Assembly: GCA_026004415.1 (NCBI GenBank)
Contig: BPJC01000001.1
Location: 62,001-126,000, forward strand
Direction of reading: 5' to 3'
Length of the DNA: 64,000 nt
Source: Patescibacteria group bacterium
GTDB taxonomy: Bacteria > Patescibacteriota > Microgenomatia > UBA1406 > GWC2-37-13
The notes under the pieces are model-generated. The model searched no databases, was not told the DNA's origin, and saw only the letters and a program-made list of their open reading frames with translations. The translations under genes were made by a program, and so were the position numbers. Below are positions 16,935 through 40,950 of the stretch, one piece after another; position 1 is the first letter of the stretch; the number at the start of each line of letters is the position of its first letter.

Positions 16935-18059
16935 ATGAAATTGCAAAGATTTAAAACAGTTGTCAAAAGAAGACAGGCTTTAGAAAAAGATTTAGGTTTG
17001 AAACTGTCAAAGATTAGCAAAGCATTGGTAGAGTCTGAGTCAAAGATCCATTGTGAAAACTTAATTGGAGCTACAATTTTGCCGTTAGGTGTTGCTGGTC
17101 CGTTGAGGTTTGCCTCTGTCTATACTGATCGAGTTAGGGAAGTTTATATACCTCTTGCTACAACTGAAGGCGCTTTAGTTGCTTCGGTTAACAGAGGTTG
17201 CAAGGCTTTGAGTTTGTCAGACTCTGTAAATATTTTGGTAGAAAAGGTAGGTATTAGTAGAGCTCCTGTTTTTTATATTGAAAATATAAGCAAGGGAAAG
17301 TATTTTGAAAATTGGTTAGAAAAAAACTTTGATAAGTTATCTGATGTTGTCAGATCAACCTCTAGTCATTTAAGGTTATTAAGATATGAGTTTTTTTTGT
17401 ATCCTCCTTATGCTTATGTTAGGTTTTTTTTTGATCCAGATCAGGCAATGGGAATGAATATGGCAACAATTGCTGTAAAGGCAATTTCTGAGTATGTTTT
17501 AAAGAAACTTAAGATAGATTGTTTGGCTTTATCTGGCAACTTGTGCGTTGATAAAAAACCATCTTTTTTGAATTTTGTAACAGGTCGCGGTTTTAAGGTT
17601 TGGGCTGAGGTTTTATTGCCAGATAAAGTTTTAAACAATATTCTCAAGACAGATGCCTCAAGGTTTTTGTCAGTGTTTTACAGCAAAAATCTATATGGGT
17701 CTTTAATCTCTGGATCTATTTCTGCCAATGCTCATTTTGCAAATATTGTCTCTGCTTTTTATTCAGCAGTAGGGCAGGATCTGGCTCATACTGTTGAGGG
17801 TAGTTTGGGTACTGTTTTTGCAGAAAAAAGAAAGGAATCTCTTTATTTTTGTGTTCATTTGCCAGCGGTTTTGCTTGGTGTTGTCGGAGGTGGCACAAAA
17901 CTTGATATTAAACAGGAGGCAATTAGTATAACAAATTCTGGCAATAGTATTGAGTTAGCTGAGGTCTTGGGTGGCGCGGTTTTAGCAGGTGAGTTATCTT
18001 TATTGTCTTCTTTGGCTGAAGGTAGTTTGGCTGGAGCTCATAAGAAACTTGGTAGATAA
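16935..18059 (+). CDS. hmgA: Hydroxymethylglutaryl-CoA reductase
   Basis: 374 aa catalytic domain without membrane anchor. Motifs in order: ENLIGATILPLGVAGPL, TTEGALVASVNRG (catalytic Glu), DQAMGMNM, GNLCVDKKP (the DKKP lysine), GQDLAHTVEGS, and GVVGGGTKL. The C-terminal LAGAHKKLG supplies the catalytic His. The DKKP form resembles class I enzymes of archaea and eukaryotes. It makes mevalonate from HMG-CoA with NAD(P)H and is the first gene of the isoprenoid block. Confidence 0.95.
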   Translation: MKLQRFKTVVKRRQALEKDLGLKLSKISKALVESESKIHCENLIGATILPLGVAGPLRFASVYTDRVREVYIPLATTEGALVASVNRGCKALSLSDSVNILVEKVGISRAPVFYIENISKGKYFENWLEKNFDKLSDVVRSTSSHLRLLRYEFFLYPPYAYVRFFFDPDQAMGMNMATIAVKAISEYVLKKLKIDCLALSGNLCVDKKPSFLNFVTGRGFKVWAEVLLPDKVLNNILKTDASRFLSVFYSKNLYGSLISGSISANAHFANIVSAFYSAVGQDLAHTVEGSLGTVFAEKRKESLYFCVHLPAVLLGVVGGGTKLDIKQEAISITNSGNSIELAEVLGGAVLAGELSLLSSLAEGSLAGAHKKLGR

Positions 18060-18087
18060 TGTTTGTTCTGTTTCAGCTTTGTCGTAA

Positions 18088-18510
18088 TTATTCTTTAAAA
18101 TTAAACAGAGTTAGTCCTGTTTCCTGATCATGGCTTTTTTTGAGTTCGGCTGTTTTGATTAAATAAAGTTCTAAGGTTGCTGATACTCTGGCTTCGACCA
18201 AATGCCCTGCAATTGTAGTCATATCATCTTTTGATAGTGTAGCATGGCAGTGAATAATTATGTCCTTTTCTTTGCCAATAGTACCTGAAAGATTGGATAC
18301 TTCAAGAGGTTGTTCAAATACCTTTGTTGTGTATTTTTTGCTTTTTACAGAGTAATGTGCTAGTTTGGCATAATCTACAGCACCAATGCCCAAAAACACT
18401 CCGCCTGTTATTTTGTGTTTAACACAAAAGTTGTTCAGCTCTTTTATAAACAGCTCTTTTCTTTCAAATCTTAATATCCAACTGTTTTTGTTGAGTTGTT
18501 TTGATTGCAT
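18088..18510 (-). CDS. DUF296/PPC-domain protein
   Basis: 140 aa. It has the PCC/PPC fold pattern: SWILRFERKELFIKELNNFC, GGVFLGIGAVDYAKLAHYS, and IIHCHATLSKDDMTTIAGHLVEARVSATLELYL, with the conserved His-x-His. In bacteria these small single-domain proteins may bind DNA or metal. It sits on the opposite strand between HMGR and HMG-CoA synthase, so it is not part of that operon. Confidence 0.85.
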   Translation of the reverse strand: MQSKQLNKNSWILRFERKELFIKELNNFCVKHKITGGVFLGIGAVDYAKLAHYSVKSKKYTTKVFEQPLEVSNLSGTIGKEKDIIIHCHATLSKDDMTTIAGHLVEARVSATLELYLIKTAELKKSHDQETGLTLFNFKE

Positions 18511-18584
18511 ACTGTAATTTTATCAGAATATATCTGTCATTTTTTAAATGATTTTAAATTTAAAAAGCGACTTAAATCCTACTT

Positions 18585-19610
18585 ATGAGATCTGGCATTT
18601 TGTCTATTGGAGTATATATTCCATCTTTAAGGTTAAAAACATCAGAGATTGCCAATGTCTGGGGTAAAGATAACTCTGTAGTTGCTTCTTTAGGTGTTTT
18701 GGAAAAATCTGTCGCAGATCTCGATGAGGACTCATTTACAATGGGTTTGGAGTCTGCCTTTAATGCCATCTCAAAGTTTAATATTGAAAAAAACAAAATT
18801 AAAAGAGTGTTTTTTGGATCAGAATCAGGCGCTTATGCAGTTAAGCCAACCTCGGTTATGATCGCTGATTATCTTGGCATTAAAGGAGAGTATCTTGCTT
18901 ATGATACGCAGTTTGCCTGTAAATCAGCTACCTCTGCCTTGATCTCAGCTTTTGAATCAACTTTTGTTAATAAAGATGAGTTCAGTTTGGTAATTGCTTC
19001 AGATAAAGCTTTGGGCAAACCTTCAGATGCTTTGGAGTTTACAGCTGGATCTGGCGCTGGTTCTGTTGTAGTTGGTTCATCTGATAATTTATTGCTTGAG
19101 CTTGAAGGTTATGCTAGTTTTGCCACTGACACCTCGGATTTTTGGAGAAAGCAACACAGCAAATTTCCTGCCCATGCTGGCAGGTTTTCTGGAGAGCCGG
19201 CGTATTTCTATCATATTAAATCAGCTGTAGCTATATTGTTTAAAAAAATAGATCTCAAGGTTCAGGACTATGATTATGTTGTTTTTCATACACCTAACGC
19301 TAAGTTTCCGGTCAAAATAGCTTTGAGTCTGGGTTTTAGTTTAGACCAGGTAACGCCGAGTTTGATTGTATCAAAGATTGGCAATTGTTACTCTGCCTCT
19401 ACTTTTTTATCTTTGTCTGCTGTTTTGCAAATAGTTAAGCCTGGAGACAGAATTCTTCTTGTTTCTTATGGTTCAGGAGCTGGGTCCGATGCCTTTAGTT
19501 TTAAGGTGTCTGATTTCATAAATGAGTATGAATCTGAGTTAGACAATTACCTAAATAATAAAAAATATATAAGTTATGTAGATTACCTTAAGGCAATAGG
19601 TCAATTATGA
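18585..19610 (+). CDS. Hydroxymethylglutaryl-CoA synthase, archaeal type
   Basis: 341 aa. The N-terminus SIGVYIPSLRLKTSEIANVWG and the nucleophile Cys112 in YDTQFACKSATSAL match the archaeal UPF0219-type HMG-CoA synthase rather than the longer bacterial or eukaryotic form. His235 in VVFHTPNAKF is the likely general base. It condenses acetyl-CoA with acetoacetyl-CoA. The stop overlaps the thiolase start, and DUF35 follows, reproducing the archaeal gene order. Confidence 0.93.
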   Translation: MRSGILSIGVYIPSLRLKTSEIANVWGKDNSVVASLGVLEKSVADLDEDSFTMGLESAFNAISKFNIEKNKIKRVFFGSESGAYAVKPTSVMIADYLGIKGEYLAYDTQFACKSATSALISAFESTFVNKDEFSLVIASDKALGKPSDALEFTAGSGAGSVVVGSSDNLLLELEGYASFATDTSDFWRKQHSKFPAHAGRFSGEPAYFYHIKSAVAILFKKIDLKVQDYDYVVFHTPNAKFPVKIALSLGFSLDQVTPSLIVSKIGNCYSASTFLSLSAVLQIVKPGDRILLVSYGSGAGSDAFSFKVSDFINEYESELDNYLNNKKYISYVDYLKAIGQL

Positions 19611-20743
19611 AGGTTTATATAAAAGATTATTATCAGACTAGGTTTGGAGAGTTGTGGGAGAGGTCTCTTACAGATCTAATCTTTGAGGTTGCAACAAGGT
19701 TGTTGGATAACAATGGTCTGTCTGTAAAAGATATCTCTGCGGTTTTTTTAGGGAATATGTTATCTGGTGTGTTAGACAAAAATCTTTTGTTATCGGCAAA
19801 AATCAATGAGGTGTTGGGCAATATCGGTTTGCCTGTAGTTAGATCAGAAGCCGCCTGTGCCTCTGGTTCTGTTGCTTTATATAATGCAGTTAATTTTCTA
19901 AAATCTGAACAAGGCAGGTATGTTTTGGTTTTAGGTGTTGAGAAGATGACTGATTTTTCAGTTGATGAAGTTACTACTGCGTTATCTGTGGCATTGTCTG
20001 GTTCTGAACAGATGTCTGGATTAACCTTTCCAGGTGTTTATGCTTTAATGGCTAGGCTTTATCTTGATAAATACAACTATACCGAAGAGGATCTGGCTAA
20101 GGTCGCAGTTATAAACCATTTTTGGGGAAGTCTTAATCCTAAAGCTCAGTTTAGAAATAGGATTACAATTGCTGATGTTTTAAACTCTGCTTATGTTGCT
20201 GATCCTTTAAAGGTATATGATTGTTCTCCTATATCAGATGGTTGCGCAGGTGTTTTGTTAACAACAGAGCAGTCTCAAGTAGAGATTGCCTCTTGTTGTG
20301 TGGCTACAGATTCTTTAGCTATAACTGAAAGAAAGGATTTGTTAAAACTACAGTCAGTTGTCAGATCTGGTCAACAGGCATTAGAAAAAGCTGGTATTGA
20401 CTTAGATGATATTGATTTGCTGGAGGTTCATGATTGTTTTACTATTGCTGAACTGTTGGTTTTAGAGTCATTAGGAGTTTGTAGTCAAGGCACAGCAGTA
20501 GAGTTTGTTTCTAAGTTTAATCAGGACAATCCTTTTGAGTTAAAGCCTGTTGTTAATACATCAGGAGGATTAAAATCAAGCGGTCATCCTGTTGGTGCAA
20601 CAGGGGTTAAGCAAATAGGTGAAATTTTTCTGCAGTTAACAAATCAAGCTGGAGAAAGACAGATTGATAATGCTAAGGTTGGTTTGGCTCAAAACACAGC
20701 AGGGTCTGGAGGATTATCAGTTGTTACAATTCTTAAAAAATGA
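19607..20743 (+). CDS. Acetyl-CoA C-acetyltransferase, archaeal SCP2-type thiolase
   Basis: 378 aa. Nucleophile Cys84 lies in RSEAACASGSVALYNAV. The His motifs are VHDCFTIAELL and NTSGGLKSSGHPVGATG. The end QNTAGSGGLSVVTIL follows the archaeal/SCP2 pattern rather than the CGGGG of PhaA-type thiolases. It makes acetoacetyl-CoA for the neighbouring synthase. ATGA overlaps with both neighbours indicate one operon and probably one complex. Confidence 0.92.
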   Translation: MKVYIKDYYQTRFGELWERSLTDLIFEVATRLLDNNGLSVKDISAVFLGNMLSGVLDKNLLLSAKINEVLGNIGLPVVRSEAACASGSVALYNAVNFLKSEQGRYVLVLGVEKMTDFSVDEVTTALSVALSGSEQMSGLTFPGVYALMARLYLDKYNYTEEDLAKVAVINHFWGSLNPKAQFRNRITIADVLNSAYVADPLKVYDCSPISDGCAGVLLTTEQSQVEIASCCVATDSLAITERKDLLKLQSVVRSGQQALEKAGIDLDDIDLLEVHDCFTIAELLVLESLGVCSQGTAVEFVSKFNQDNPFELKPVVNTSGGLKSSGHPVGATGVKQIGEIFLQLTNQAGERQIDNAKVGLAQNTAGSGGLSVVTILKK

Positions 20744-21045
20744 AAGCTGTTGTAAGTCCTGTAAAAATTTGGCGTAGGCAGTCTAAAATAAGTTCCTTGT
20801 TAGGAAAGACAGGCAGAGTGATAACTTATACTGTGATTAGATCAGCTCCAGCAGGTTATGCTAAATTTAGTCCCTATACAATTGTACTAGTAGAGTTTGA
20901 TGATAACAGTAAAGCAATTGGTCAGTATAGAGGGTCAACACCTGTTTTTGTTGGCATGAATGTTAAGGCGGTTTTAAGATTGGCTTTAGAAGAATCTGGA
21001 GATGAGCCTTTGGTTTACACAGTTAAGTTTGTTGAGGTTATATGA
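20740..21045 (+). CDS. DUF35 OB-fold scaffold protein lacking the zinc ribbon
   Basis: 101 aa between thiolase and mevalonate kinase with overlapping starts and stops. The OB-fold core is recognisable (GKTGRVITYTVIRSAPAGYAKFSPYTIVLVEF...GQYRGSTPVFVGMNVKAVLR). Archaeal DUF35 proteins bridge thiolase and HMG-CoA synthase so that acetoacetyl-CoA is channelled. Those carry an N-terminal four-Cys zinc ribbon; this protein contains no Cys at all. It is therefore a shortened, zinc-free version, if the role is kept. Confidence 0.85.
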   Translation: MKAVVSPVKIWRRQSKISSLLGKTGRVITYTVIRSAPAGYAKFSPYTIVLVEFDDNSKAIGQYRGSTPVFVGMNVKAVLRLALEESGDEPLVYTVKFVEVI

Positions 21046-21983
21046 AACAAATCTGCTATTCAGCTCCTGCAAAAATAATTCTTTCAGGCGAGCATTCAGT
21101 TGTTTATGGCAAACCTGCTTTGGCAACTGCGATTGATAAAAGGATTAAAATTAAATTAACTTCAGCAGTTTATAGCAGTACATCATGTAGGCCAAAGCAT
21201 TGGCAGTCAATGGAAGACTTTGTGAGAAAATATCTTAAACTATCAGATAAGTTTCCAGATTATAATGTAGATATTTATTCAGAAATTCCACAAGGTAGTG
21301 GGTTGGGATCGTCTGCGGCTTATTCTGTTGCTTCAATCGCTTGCTTGCTTCATTTGTTTACTAAAAAACCAGCTTCTGCGGAATTAGTAAACAAACTAGC
21401 TTTTCAAGCAGAAAAGATTTTTCATAAGAATCCATCTGGTATAGACAACTCAACTTCAACCTTTGGTGGTTTTATTTTTTATAGAAAAGAGTTTGAGTTT
21501 TTAAAGTTGGTTAGTAGGTTAAGTATTAAAATTCCAAACAACTTTCAAGAGCGTATGTTTTTAATTGATACAGGAAAACCTAAAGAAAGCACAGCTGAGA
21601 TGGTTGAGTTTGTTGGTAAGTTGTGGAATCAAAAAGGTTCCCAAGTTGAAAAAACTGTAAACGATATTGAAAAAACAACTAAGCGGTTGGTTATTTCCCT
21701 GGTGCAGGAGAACTTTAAGTTTTTTTGCAACTCAATTGCTGAAAACCAACGACTGCTTGAATCTTTAGGAGTTTTTTCTGATTATAGTAAAAATCTGTTA
21801 TCTCAAATTTCAGAGTATGGTGTGTATAAATTAGTTGGAGCAGGCGGAAGAGCTAAAGGATCTGGCTATGTTTTGTTTGTTGCGTCAGATAATGGTTTTG
21901 ACCAGGTTCTTGAAAAAAACAATTTTAAATTTTTTCCTTATAAGTTTTCCAATAAAGGATTGATTTATGAAAACTCTGGTTAA
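21042..21983 (+). CDS. mvk: Mevalonate kinase (GHMP family)
   Basis: 313 aa. N-terminal SAPAKIILSGEHSVVYGKPALATAID, ATP-binding motif PQGSGLGSSAAYSVA, and C-terminal motif KLVGAGGRAKGSGYVLFV (GHMP motif 3). It phosphorylates mevalonate to mevalonate 5-phosphate. It overlaps DUF35 by ATGA and the decarboxylase gene by 17 bases. Confidence 0.92.
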   Translation: MKQICYSAPAKIILSGEHSVVYGKPALATAIDKRIKIKLTSAVYSSTSCRPKHWQSMEDFVRKYLKLSDKFPDYNVDIYSEIPQGSGLGSSAAYSVASIACLLHLFTKKPASAELVNKLAFQAEKIFHKNPSGIDNSTSTFGGFIFYRKEFEFLKLVSRLSIKIPNNFQERMFLIDTGKPKESTAEMVEFVGKLWNQKGSQVEKTVNDIEKTTKRLVISLVQENFKFFCNSIAENQRLLESLGVFSDYSKNLLSQISEYGVYKLVGAGGRAKGSGYVLFVASDNGFDQVLEKNNFKFFPYKFSNKGLIYENSG

Positions 21984-22953
21984 GGTAAAGTCTCCTGCAA
22001 ATATAGCTTTTATAAAGTATTGGGGAAGACGAAACCACAAACTTATACTTCCTTGCAATAGTAGTTTTTCTATGAATTTATCAGACTGCAGTGTGACTGT
22101 TCAGATTAAAAAGATAGAAAAAGATAAAGGTAGTAGTTTGTTTATTAAAGAGTATGAGTCTGACAAATATATTAAAAACACAGACTCAGCTTATGAGAAA
22201 ACTATCAAGTTTTTTCAGACTGCTCAGGATTTTTTAGGCAAAAAAGCAGACTTTGACATTAGTGTAAAAAGTTCTATAACTTTTCCCCGATCAGCTGGCA
22301 TTGCTTCATCTGCGGCTTATTTTTCAGCTTTGGCATTAGGTTTTTGCAAACTGTTGGATGTAGAGCTTGATAAAAAACAGTTATCTATTTTAGCAAGGTT
22401 GTCGGGTTCAGGGTCAGCATGTCGTTCTGTTCCAGATGGTTTTGTGCTTTGGCATAAAGGCAATTCTTCAGAGTCTAGTTATGCTGAGTCTTTAGCCGAC
22501 CCTAAATTTTGGTCGTTAGTTGATGTTGTTGTGATAGTTTCTGATAAAAGCAAAAAGGTAGCGTCTGCTGAAGGTCATCAAGCCGCGGATACAAGTCCTT
22601 TATTTGATGAAAGAGTTTACGGAGTTGAAAAAAGACTTAAATTAATGCTTAAGGCTTTTGAGAATAAAGACCTGGAAAAGTTTGGTCATTTGTTAGAAGC
22701 TGAGGCTTTGTCAATGCACTCTGTTATGATGACTCAGAGGCCTAATCTGTATTACTGGAGTTTGGAAACATTTAAGCTAATGAAGTCTGTAGTTAAACTT
22801 AGAGAGTCCGGCTTGCCAGTTTTTTTTACCATTGATGCAGGAGCCAATCTGCATTTGATCACTGAGTCAAGGTACCTTAGCAAATTAAAACCAGCTATAG
22901 GTAAATACAAATTTATAGTAAACAGACCAGCGTTTGGAGCTAAAGTTTTATGA
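21967..22953 (+). CDS. mvaD: Diphosphomevalonate or phosphomevalonate decarboxylase
   Basis: 328 aa GHMP-family decarboxylase. N-terminal SPANIAFIKYWGRRNHKLILPCNSSFSMNL, the phosphate loop FPRSAGIASSAAYFSALAL, ARLSGSGSACRSVPDGFVLW, and the C-terminal TIDAGANLHLI with the catalytic Asp. Typical MvaD proteins read DAGPN here; this one has DAGAN. Because an isopentenyl phosphate kinase gene overlaps its end and no phosphomevalonate kinase is visible, it may decarboxylate mevalonate 5-phosphate instead. The substrate cannot be settled from sequence alone. Confidence 0.88.
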   Translation: MKTLVKVKSPANIAFIKYWGRRNHKLILPCNSSFSMNLSDCSVTVQIKKIEKDKGSSLFIKEYESDKYIKNTDSAYEKTIKFFQTAQDFLGKKADFDISVKSSITFPRSAGIASSAAYFSALALGFCKLLDVELDKKQLSILARLSGSGSACRSVPDGFVLWHKGNSSESSYAESLADPKFWSLVDVVVIVSDKSKKVASAEGHQAADTSPLFDERVYGVEKRLKLMLKAFENKDLEKFGHLLEAEALSMHSVMMTQRPNLYYWSLETFKLMKSVVKLRESGLPVFFTIDAGANLHLITESRYLSKLKPAIGKYKFIVNRPAFGAKVL

Positions 22954-23738
22954 ATGAGTTAATTTTAATCAAAATAGGAGGTAGTTTGATTGCTGATAAA
23001 AACAAGATCTACGAGATTAATAAACAGGTTGTTGGAAAACTGGTTTCGTCTATTTCAAAGTTTCTGGAAAAGAAGAAAAACAGCCAACTGGTTATTGCCA
23101 ATGGAGCTGGTAGCTTTGGTCATTACACTGTCATAAAATATAATTTAAACAGACTCAAAGGCGCTTATCTTACTGATCTGCAAAAATCTGGCATTGGTTT
23201 TGTTCACAGCAAAGTCTCTTATCTAAATGCTTATCTTAACAATGAACTGTCAGAACAAGGTGTTTCAGTTGTTTCTTTTTCTCCCATATCATATTTATTC
23301 AAAGACGAAGAGCTGTCTTTGTTTGCAAAGCCTTTGCTTTCAGCACTGAGTTTAGGTTTGAACATCTCGTTTTACGGAGATTTGATCTTTACAAAAGACA
23401 AACAGACAACTGTTGTCTCTACAGAACAACTGCTTGAGATTTTTGTTGATAAGCTTTTGGCCAAAACAGCGTTTAAGGTCTCAAAGGTTGTTTTTGTTAC
23501 TAATGTTTCTGGAGTTTTGGACAATCATGGTGATGTCATTAAAAAAATTACCCAGGACTTTTCTTCTGATCAAGTAAATATTTTTAAGGTAAAAAAAGAT
23601 GTTAGCGGTGGTATGAAGATAAAACTTAAAACAGCTTTACATTTTGCTAAACAAGGTATAAAAACCTATATCTGTGGTGTAAATGATTTTGAAAACTGTT
23701 TATTTGATCTGCCAGGAGGCTACACAGTTGTTGTCTGA
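22950..23738 (+). CDS. ipk: Isopentenyl phosphate kinase
   Basis: 262 aa amino-acid-kinase fold. KIGGSLIADKN at the N-terminus, ANGAGSFGHYTVIKYNL with the His that defines IPK in this superfamily, and a C-terminal VSGGMKIKLKTALHFAKQGIKTYICGV. It phosphorylates isopentenyl phosphate to IPP. The start overlaps the decarboxylase stop (ATGA). IPK is standard in archaea and rare in bacteria, where it points to the alternative mevalonate route. Confidence 0.92.
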   Translation: MNELILIKIGGSLIADKNKIYEINKQVVGKLVSSISKFLEKKKNSQLVIANGAGSFGHYTVIKYNLNRLKGAYLTDLQKSGIGFVHSKVSYLNAYLNNELSEQGVSVVSFSPISYLFKDEELSLFAKPLLSALSLGLNISFYGDLIFTKDKQTTVVSTEQLLEIFVDKLLAKTAFKVSKVVFVTNVSGVLDNHGDVIKKITQDFSSDQVNIFKVKKDVSGGMKIKLKTALHFAKQGIKTYICGVNDFENCLFDLPGGYTVVV

Positions 23739-23739
23739 A

Positions 23740-24087
23740 TTATTCACCAATTCGTGGCAAAAAAATGCCCCAGCCGCCATCTTCTGTTCTGGTTGCTATA
23801 CCAAGCATATCTGCGGCTACATATACATAGATTGAAAGTATTACAAAGATCATAATTAAGCCTATTACTGAGTAAAAAATTTTGTTCCTAGCTTTAGATA
23901 TAGCATCAGAGTCTCCAGAAGAGGTTATAAAATCATAAGCGCCCCAGAACATATAAAACAAAGCTGTGAGCGCGGCAACTAATAAGAATAACTTAATACC
24001 AAAATCAATTATAGTAGATACTGCCGCAGGAGCTGATGGGTTGTCGTATCCTATAGATATTTTAGGAGTGCCAAAGATTTTATCCAT
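23740..24087 (-). CDS. VirB2/TrbC-like small membrane protein
   Basis: 115 aa, two membrane helices (about 30-50 and 70-92) joined by FITSSGDSDAISKARNKI, the loop shared with the paralogues at 2034-2498 and 24100-24399. No cleavable signal peptide is evident. Convergent with the IPK gene, one base from its stop. Followed on the same strand by its paralogue, so the pair may be co-transcribed. Confidence 0.6.
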   Translation of the reverse strand: MDKIFGTPKISIGYDNPSAPAAVSTIIDFGIKLFLLVAALTALFYMFWGAYDFITSSGDSDAISKARNKIFYSVIGLIMIFVILSIYVYVAADMLGIATRTEDGGWGIFLPRIGE

Positions 24088-24099
24088 AATTTAACTTAA

Positions 24100-24399
24100 T
24101 TAAAAATAAACTGGTATTTTGAAAATATACGCCAGAACTCTAGATATAACAAGACTTAGAGTTACCAGAATAAAACCTATAACAGAAAAAGTAAATAAGG
24201 TTTTTGCTTTACCTACTTGGTCTGGATTGCCGCTTGAAGAGATTAACAGATATGTTCCATAAAGCCCTGCTGTTATAAACATAATAAAACCAACACCTAA
24301 AGCTAATCTGAAAAACAAAGAAAAGATAGTGTTTATGTCAGAGAATTGAGCAATAGGATTAACTTCAGGTTTTGAGAGATCAAGGGCATACACCTTCAT
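24100..24399 (-). CDS. VirB2/TrbC-like small membrane protein
   Basis: 99 aa, two membrane helices with the loop LISSSGNPDQVGKAKTLF. TACAAT lies 8 bases before its ATG on the minus strand, again a leaderless layout. Upstream of its paralogue at 23740-24087 with a 12-base gap. A VirD4-like ATPase gene lies close by at 25343. Confidence 0.58.
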   Translation of the reverse strand: MKVYALDLSKPEVNPIAQFSDINTIFSLFFRLALGVGFIMFITAGLYGTYLLISSSGNPDQVGKAKTLFTFSVIGFILVTLSLVISRVLAYIFKIPVYF

Positions 24400-24452
24400 A
24401 TTTTATGATTGTAATTTAAATGATTTTGTAAATCAAGACGACTTTTAAAATT

Positions 24453-25139
24453 ATGAGTTTAACTCACTTGGCAATAATTCCAGATGGTAATCGTAGATGG
24501 GCAAGGAGTAAGGGTTTGCCTGAATTTTTTGGCCACAACTATGCGGCTGAAAAAACTTTGCCTAAACTGCTTGAAAAGGTTAGAGCATTGAACATAAAGT
24601 ACTTTACATTCTGGGCAATGTCTTCTGAAAACTTAGTTAAAAGATCTCCAGATGAGCTAAAGAATTTGTTTAAACTTTTGGAAAAGATGCTTGATCTGAA
24701 AAAACAGGATTTTATTAAGCACAGAACACATTTTAATGTTATAGGCAATATAACACAACTTCCCGACAGAATACAAGAAAAAATTGATGAACTAAAAAAA
24801 GCCACTAAAGACTTTTCAGATTACTACTTTACACTAGCCATAAACTATGGCGGAAGAGATGAGATTGTAAGAGCAGTAAATAAATTTTTACAAGAAACAC
24901 AAGGAAAACAGTTAATTACAAAAGAGATTTTATCACAGCATTTAGACACAGCAGGAATGCCAGATCCGGATTTGATTATTCGCACAGGAAAAGAAAAACG
25001 GGTCTCTGGTTTTATGCTGTGGCAGTCAGAGTACTCAGAGTATTATTTTTCAAACAAATTCTTCCCAGATTTTAATGAGCAGGATCTAACTGATGCAGTT
25101 GTTGATTTTAATAATAGACAACGAAGGTTGGGCCGTTAA
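24453..25139 (+). CDS. uppS: Isoprenyl transferase (undecaprenyl diphosphate synthase family)
   Basis: 228 aa cis-prenyltransferase. IPDGNRRWA with the catalytic Asp near the N-terminus, YFTFWAMSSENLVKRSPDEL, and the C-terminal LIIRTGKEKRVSGFMLWQSEYSEYYF with Arg residues for IPP binding (RTGG is usual; here RTGK). It elongates an allylic diphosphate with IPP and makes the lipid carrier for wall polymers. It lies directly beyond the mevalonate block, which would supply its substrate. Confidence 0.94.
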   Translation: MSLTHLAIIPDGNRRWARSKGLPEFFGHNYAAEKTLPKLLEKVRALNIKYFTFWAMSSENLVKRSPDELKNLFKLLEKMLDLKKQDFIKHRTHFNVIGNITQLPDRIQEKIDELKKATKDFSDYYFTLAINYGGRDEIVRAVNKFLQETQGKQLITKEILSQHLDTAGMPDPDLIIRTGKEKRVSGFMLWQSEYSEYYFSNKFFPDFNEQDLTDAVVDFNNRQRRLGR

Positions 25140-39890: not shown

Positions 39891-40950
39891 CGGTTTTGCA
39901 ATAACAATGCTTTAGCTTGATTAATTTTATAATCAAACCAGTTTTGGCACAAAATAATGTATTCAGGTGCTACTATATTTTCCATAGTATTTAAAAATTC
40001 TTTGTAGTTTTCCAAAATTAAATTATATATTTCTTCTCTAGGTAATTTTCCAACAACAAACTCTAGTAGCCAATCTATTTGTTCTGGAATTAAGTTAGAA
40101 TTGCCAAAACAATCTTTCAATTTCTGTTTCTCTTCGGGAGTTGCTATCTCTCGTAAAGTAATCATGGGAATAGTAACTGTACCACTACGAATATCAGTAA
40201 ACAATCCTCTTCCGTAAATCTGTCAGGGCATAAGATCTTTGACATCATTTAAAATTTGTCCTGATCTATTAAGACAAAAGAGACCGTTTGTAACCATTGG
40301 AATTAATTTCTCTCTTTTACTACCAGCAAGTAAATCTTTTACGGGGTATTCGCAATGAAACCGTGCTTGGCGATCTATGTTGCGTAAGATTTCATCAGTA
40401 TTAGAGTCTATACTCCTTACTGCAGGATCTTCCAATGATTCAAGACTGTCATTTATGGTTTCTTCAAGCTATTGTGCTATTTGTGGAGATAAAATTTCTG
40501 CAGTTAAACCTTGAAGGATTTGAAAAGCAATGTCTGCTGACTTATAAGTTGTTTGTTCTTCATAAATGCTCCAGGCGGTTTTCTTGTTTGCTCGTAAATG
40601 GTCCCTATCGATAATGTCCTCAACCATTAGAGACAAACGCCAAAGCGAGTCTGTGCTTGCGGCAACAAACCTAGCTCTATTTATATCAATAGAGTTGCCT
40701 ATACTTATCCGTATATAAAAACAGGTTTTTATTTGGTAACTTGGGTGGTTAAAGTATGCAAAATAGGAGGATGTTGCTCAGTTGGAATCTAATTTAGGAT
40801 TTCTACTAAAGCCTGATTTGTTCCATTTCTAACGAATTCTGCATAAAGGTCTTTGACAATAGGAGTAAAAAGTCGTTCTTGAGTGAGGGTAGTTAGATTT
40901 CCGAGACTAAGTTCCAGAGCTGGGGGATAGTTTTTCAATACATCCTGCAT
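39887..40950 (-). pseudogene. Trans-polyprenyl diphosphate synthetase, multiply broken
   Basis: ATG at 40950 starts MQDVLKNYPPALELSLGNL. After stops and a frame change the enzyme core appears: SLMVEDIIDRDHLRANKKTAW (first Asp-rich motif as EDIIDRD), EYPVKDLLAGSKREKLIP, QILNDVKDLMP, a TGA, QIYGRG, and TDIRSGTVTIPMITLRE (typical C-terminal motif of GGPP-type synthetases). It is the first gene of a decayed five-gene minus-strand operon. It is the only trans-prenyl synthetase in the window. Confidence 0.78.

Follow-up and report, generated by a model that had tools for sequence, protein, structure and literature searches.

A mevalonate operon with isopentenyl phosphate kinase and without phosphomevalonate kinase in a Patescibacteria genome: probable synthesis of isopentenyl diphosphate through isopentenyl phosphate

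The DNA analyzed here, referred to as the window, is a stretch of 64,000 nucleotides from a Patescibacteria group bacterium (GCA_026004415.1, contig BPJC01000001.1, positions 62,001 to 126,000). At window positions 16935-25139 it carries a block of mevalonate pathway genes in which a mevalonate kinase (MVK), a homologue of the decarboxylase MvaD and an isopentenyl phosphate kinase (IPK) adjoin each other. Judging from gene content, related operons and active-site residues, we consider it probable (about 0.85) that the organism uses the route of the haloarchaeal and Chloroflexi type, from mevalonate to mevalonate 5-phosphate, isopentenyl phosphate and isopentenyl diphosphate (IPP), and the MvaD homologue is most likely a phosphomevalonate decarboxylase (PMD). 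In such a pathway, thiolase, 3-hydroxy-3-methylglutaryl-CoA (HMG-CoA) synthase (HMGS) and a DUF35 protein would supply HMG-CoA, HMG-CoA reductase (HMGR) would convert it to mevalonate, and MVK would form mevalonate 5-phosphate. The MvaD homologue would phosphorylate this product at C3 and then decarboxylate it to isopentenyl phosphate, and IPK would yield the IPP used by UppS and two prenyl synthases. The presence of an MvaD homologue would also make an aconitase X-like phosphomevalonate dehydratase, as in the archaeal-type route, unnecessary. A first-pass annotation of the window had proposed a mevalonate 5-phosphate decarboxylase acting together with IPK; the proposal gains support from the genome search and the comparison of relatives described below, and the DAGAN motif on which it had also leaned does not add to it.

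The source genome (G000) comprises 1.01 Mb in 14 contigs and is 99.58% complete. Searched with PF00288 for the GHMP-kinase family, which includes MVK, the bacterial and yeast phosphomevalonate kinases (PMK) and MvaD, it contained two proteins only, the MVK and MvaD of the operon, and the same scan found at least three GHMP proteins in many relatives. The block itself, as first annotated, contains neither PMK nor isopentenyl diphosphate isomerase (IDI), and the genome as a whole had no GHMP-type PMK and no match to IDI-1 (TIGR02150) or IDI-2 (TIGR02151). Nudix genes were considered as hidden IDI-1 and rejected, as the readable frames resemble other Nudix hydrolases; none was recognized by TIGR02150, and one place had no readable frame. 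The test for the methylerythritol phosphate (MEP) pathway was likewise negative, with no match to IspH (PF02401) in the source genome.

Many related operons contain two kinases, and the reading of the window depends on which of them it has kept. The window MVK (21042-21983, + strand; TIGR00549 172.5 against a cut-off of 163) has the signature EKIFHKNPSGIDNS, common to the K1 kinases of the family. It shares with its orthologues the pattern E..FH..PSG.D, found also in the mevalonate kinases of rat and human, and all 11 of its 11 best PDB matches are mevalonate kinases. The second kinase of the relatives carries QG.GSGFD.A, which resembles the QG-GS-D-A stretch of solved PMKs (QGNGSCGDIA in Lin0012, RGDNGSMGDLA in 1k47), and scores about 98-116 bits with the PMK model TIGR01220 against 43 for the window kinase; its top scores were obtained with mevalonate-kinase models. 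The reversed assignment, in which the second kinase would be the MVK, would have overturned the reading of a phosphomevalonate decarboxylase with IPK; the signature motifs and the comparison with solved PMKs decide against it. Going by these motifs, the window keeps the mevalonate kinase and has no PMK-like gene.

The IPK (22950-23738, + strand; NF040647 126.8 against a cut-off of 120) contains the motif GAGSFGH with the conserved His58 (23121-23123), and each of its seven PDB matches is either an IPK entry or IPK-like, the best being 7lnt (3e-19). Loci were annotated from 45 MvaD-bearing genomes of the same GTDB family, 42 of which were also searched for IPK. A kinase with the PMK signature lies beside MvaD in 29 of the 42, and only one of these (G046) has IPK too; the remaining 13 have no such kinase, and 12 of them have IPK. 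The genome-wide GHMP scan covered six of these 12 (G000, G001, G003, G004, G014, and G017), and each had two GHMP proteins. Two layouts dominate and occupy the same locus: HMGR-HMGS-thiolase-DUF35-MVK-second kinase-(IDI-1-like)-MvaD-UppS without IPK, and the same order minus the second kinase, with IPK adjoining MvaD. A third group has HMGR to MVK in one place and MvaD-IPK in another. This alternation of PMK-like kinase and IPK supports the sequence mevalonate 5-phosphate, isopentenyl phosphate, IPP. Since the classical form of this operon is found in close relatives, the two routes can be compared directly: within one bacterial family, similar operons have either a PMK-like kinase with MvaD or MvaD with IPK, and one active-site residue follows. 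Such natural enzyme pairs make the switch between PMD and diphosphomevalonate decarboxylase (DMD) testable, the window enzyme with its ambiguous arginine included.

Several other arrangements were seen among the relatives. MEP genes replace HMGR to MVK at the same locus in L138 (G016), L142 (G007), and L150 (G015), with IspH identified by model, and frames resembling DXR, IspD, IspE, IspG and in part IspF by eye; behind them the operon retains the PMK-like kinase and MvaD, which makes it a MEP/mevalonate chimera. IPK without MvaD occurs in about 10 genomes of the family, also lacking HMGR, and in 14 of 380 genomes of the phylum, often beside UppS (including L151-L160). In G043, a single open frame (L131:7574-8899) fuses IPK and IDI-1, both above curated cut-offs. 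A guanylate-kinase-like P-loop protein follows MvaD at the expected place of IPK in G034 (L132:9382-9975), a genome in which no IPK was found and whose loci, as far as read, have no PMK-like gene. The MvaDs of L177 and L178 (family f75) have YWGN and His markers as in the Chloroflexi enzymes, but their loci lack a PMK-like gene and their genomes gave no match to IPK.

The MvaD homologue (21967-22953, + strand) passes TIGR01240, the diphosphomevalonate decarboxylase model, with 227 against a cut-off of 171, and automatic annotation would name it and other proteins of its type accordingly. Its best PDB match is the phosphomevalonate decarboxylase of Anaerolinea (6n0x, 214 bits), with 167 bits for the best diphosphate enzyme. 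Within the aligned region, a second deposited form, 6n0z, differs from 6n0x at two positions (N24 to K and H200 to M, chain numbering). As far as sequence tells, 6n0x is the natural form, because natural Chloroflexi enzymes mostly carry N (76 of 80) and H (77 of 80) at these positions, and 6n0z seems to be the engineered form acting on the diphosphate that PMC9254496 mentions. Published PMD markers are the loss of the DMD lysine and the presence of a histidine at the DMD Met position (PMC11052028), and a table in eLife 2013 (PMC3857490) gives Lys21 in the diphosphate enzymes against Leu or Met/Tyr in the monophosphate enzymes. The window enzyme lacks the DMD lysine, having Arg21 (22027-22029) in its place, and keeps both the PMD histidine, His204 (22576-22578), and the catalytic Asp290 (22834-22836). 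This histidine is present in 14 of 14 members of two IPK-associated clades. Residue 21 is charged in all 38 PMK-linked enzymes of the family and outgroups (K in 23, R in 15) and is an uncharged Q, N, M or F in 11 of 13 relatives lacking PMK; the exceptions, both with Arg, are G050 and the window enzyme. Arg21 is thus ambiguous as a specificity marker.

Neither curated models nor the DAGAN motif helped to tell PMD from DMD. As a test, TIGR01240 and NF040704 were discarded, since neither tells proteins linked to IPK from those linked to PMK. NF040704, the haloarchaeal PMD model, is narrow and does not discriminate here, giving the window enzyme 116 bits and PMK-linked relatives about 200 against a cut-off of 475. 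The first-pass annotation had cited DAGAN, where MvaD usually has DAGPN, in favor of a monophosphate substrate. The characterized Anaerolinea PMD has DAGPN, which makes the variant uninformative; the motif reads DAGEN, DAGAN or DAGPN in relatives linked to IPK and DAGPN, DAGPH or NTGQD in those linked to PMK. As a separate observation, NTGQ replaces DAGP in 21 of the 38 PMK-linked MvaDs (L136, L139, L141-L143, L145, L146, L148, and others), so that the catalytic Asp becomes Asn; the Sulfolobus enzyme is reported to have retained activity when mutated to D281N (PMC9254496).

In an MvaD tree built with the two specificity columns masked, the window-type enzymes form one clade of eight (support 100/100), with IPK in all eight genomes. 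A second IPK-associated MvaD group is separate in the best tree. A single clade of all IPK-linked MvaDs was not rejected (p 0.17), so they may have had one or two origins. Operons of the window type do not form one clade by HMGR, HMGS, thiolase, and MVK (approximately unbiased, AU, p 7e-5), nor do their IPKs (AU p 0.0009), and the latter result does not support a transfer of IPK and window-type MvaD as one cassette. With the upstream genes not forming one clade while MvaD does, the same type of decarboxylase sits in several operon backbones; each time the PMK-like kinase is missing and IPK is in the genome. We read this as functional coupling, with tree support that is moderate in places. An interchange of the PMK module with the decarboxylase/IPK module in one operon across the family is, taken jointly with the isomerase-less pathway discussed below, a rather doubtful proposition.

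Several observations weigh against a monophosphate decarboxylase feeding IPK. The absence of PMK found with PF00288 in the 99.58% complete genome applies to the GHMP type, and a P-loop, animal-type PMK was not searched for. Such a kinase is, to our knowledge, not expected in bacteria. The PMK-linked MvaDs are even nearer to 6n0x (296 bits) than the window enzyme, so similarity to a known PMD is not in itself a guide to the substrate. Arginine at residue 21 is what 15 of the 38 PMK-linked enzymes have, and the same-genus genome G001 has Gln; the position of His204 is also His in 10 of the 38 and is not decisive alone. The PMK/IPK split amounts to two changes on the MvaD tree, which leaves at most 1-2 independent comparisons for residue and gene content, and a statistical test of this relation, with 1-2 independent pairs, had no power. 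Finally, the pathway as annotated yields no dimethylallyl diphosphate (DMAPP), with no IDI found. In the rival, classical route, MvaD would act on mevalonate 5-diphosphate made by an unrecognized PMK or by an MVK that also phosphorylates mevalonate 5-phosphate, and IPK would only salvage isopentenyl phosphate. The positive charge of Arg21 at the DMD Lys21 position, common in PMK-linked enzymes, would suit it, as would the TIGR01240 match and the many relatives having IPK without MvaD or HMGR, where IPK may have a separate role. TIGR01240 is, however, passed by PMK-linked and PMK-lacking enzymes alike. The genome has no second GHMP kinase besides MVK, the signature of the window kinase is simply that of a mevalonate kinase, and PMK-like kinase and IPK are almost always mutually exclusive in relatives. 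We regard the classical route as very unlikely, as the genome encodes nothing known to make the diphosphate.

Arg21 together with His204 could also be taken as a state in which the two published markers are mixed, pointing to an intermediate decarboxylase that accepts both mono- and diphosphate; for want of a PMK the flux would still pass through IPK. Chloroflexota enzymes with dual activity are on record (PMC11052028), but the Roseiflexus enzyme had no measurable activity with mevalonate diphosphate in the eLife 2013 assay (PMC3857490), and dual specificity would be useless if no diphosphate is made in the cell. It would be a refinement of the phosphomevalonate decarboxylase/IPK route, its probability lying within that of the route, and we think it possible if somewhat unlikely. 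A mevalonate 3-kinase or Thermoplasma-type route has a negligible probability: the protein belongs to the same superfamily and weakly matches NF040848 (mevalonate 3-kinase, 19.8 bits) and NF040847 (bisphosphomevalonate decarboxylase, 39.5 bits), but both scores are far below cut-off, and the catalytic Asp290 is present in DAGAN, whereas mevalonate 3-kinases lack it (PMC9254496).

The lack of IDI, first noted for the block, was confirmed in the genome, and is a gap in the pathway rather than evidence for the phosphomevalonate decarboxylase/IPK route. DMAPP might come from an isomerase of another kind, by uptake from a partner, or through an overlooked gene. A speculative reading to which, jointly with the module exchange above, we give little weight is that an IPP-only mevalonate/IPK route supplies carotenoid-type and polyprenyl isoprenoids with neither of the known IPP isomerases; this would call for some other isomerase, which might act on the monophosphate ahead of IPK, or for DMAPP from a partner cell. 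The source genome has two intact prenyl synthases. A remnant of a third prenyl synthase, with two in-frame stops, lies in the window at 40067-40687 (- strand). A carotenoid-type cluster (L186:1727-6899; G000:C2 about 99.7-104.9 kb) encodes CrtI (phytoene desaturase), a CrtB/squalene-synthase-like protein, a prenyl synthase, a lycopene-cyclase-domain protein, and a photolyase. The prenyl synthase of this cluster is one of the two intact ones, and with such a cluster isoprenoids are very probably used by the organism.

The closest known system is the alternative mevalonate pathway of haloarchaea and of the Chloroflexi Roseiflexus castenholzii and Anaerolinea (PMC3857490; PMC9254496), which likewise has mevalonate kinase, an MvaD homologue, and IPK and no PMK, and whose Anaerolinea decarboxylase is the nearest to the window enzyme in the PDB. 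It differs in that the window has IPK next to MvaD in a single operon and that the source genome has no IDI. At 80 Chloroflexi loci, phmmer with IPKs of the candidate phyla radiation (CPR) as queries detected no IPK in the 6 kb around MvaD, and residue 21 is Arg in the window enzyme as opposed to Asn in 76 of 80 Chloroflexi enzymes. The classical, eukaryote-type operon of sister genera has the order HMGR-HMGS-thiolase-DUF35-MVK-...-MvaD-two small membrane genes-UppS and the same flanks, but between MVK and MvaD it carries a PMK-signature kinase, often together with an IDI-1-like Nudix gene, and it lacks IPK. An excerpt of a study of Peribacteria, also of the CPR, describes a near-complete mevalonate pathway (PeerJ 2016, PMC4736985); within that excerpt the PMK step is not mentioned, the last step is placed on mevalonate-5PP, and IPK is not mentioned either. 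No report of the decarboxylase/IPK route in candidate-phyla bacteria was found in the literature searched, which did not include the main CPR survey (Hoshino and Gaucher 2018). The pathway type is already known from haloarchaea and Chloroflexi, and priority for the CPR cannot be claimed.

The existence of the operon and its gene set are far above chance level, and the eight genes from HMGR through UppS listed in the first-pass annotation were all recovered by profile matches at the places given there. The list had omitted three further genes, a PCC-domain gene and two membrane genes on the minus strand. HMGR (16935-18059, + strand) is class I-like (PF00368 6e-94, 315 bits; TIGR00533 1e-100, below cut-off). 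Between it and HMGS lies, on the opposite strand, the PCC/DUF296-domain gene (18088-18510, - strand; PF03479 2e-24), of which no counterpart was found in related loci, L121 included, or in the same-genus genome G001 (phmmer E<=1e-4), and which is probably outside the pathway. HMGS (18585-19610, + strand; NF003274 417.6 bits against a cut-off of 244) and acetoacetyl-CoA thiolase (19607-20743, + strand; NF004720 and NF053570, both below cut-off) are of the archaeal type, and are followed by the DUF35/OB-fold protein (20740-21045, + strand; PF01796 1.9e-11), the expected partner of both. In archaea, thiolase, HMGS, and DUF35 protein form a channelling complex; the likeness seen here is one of genes alone, with the same three adjoining and HMGS and thiolase nearest to archaeal-type models. 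From HMGS to IPK the end of each gene overlaps the start of the next, the pattern of one transcript. UppS (24453-25139, + strand; TIGR00055 202 bits against a cut-off of 109.6; PF01255 1.7e-68), a cis-prenyltransferase, is the IPP consumer of the block. The two small membrane-protein genes (23740-24399, - strand) lie between IPK and UppS, and similar pairs sit between MvaD/IPK and UppS in those relatives for which genes were listed.

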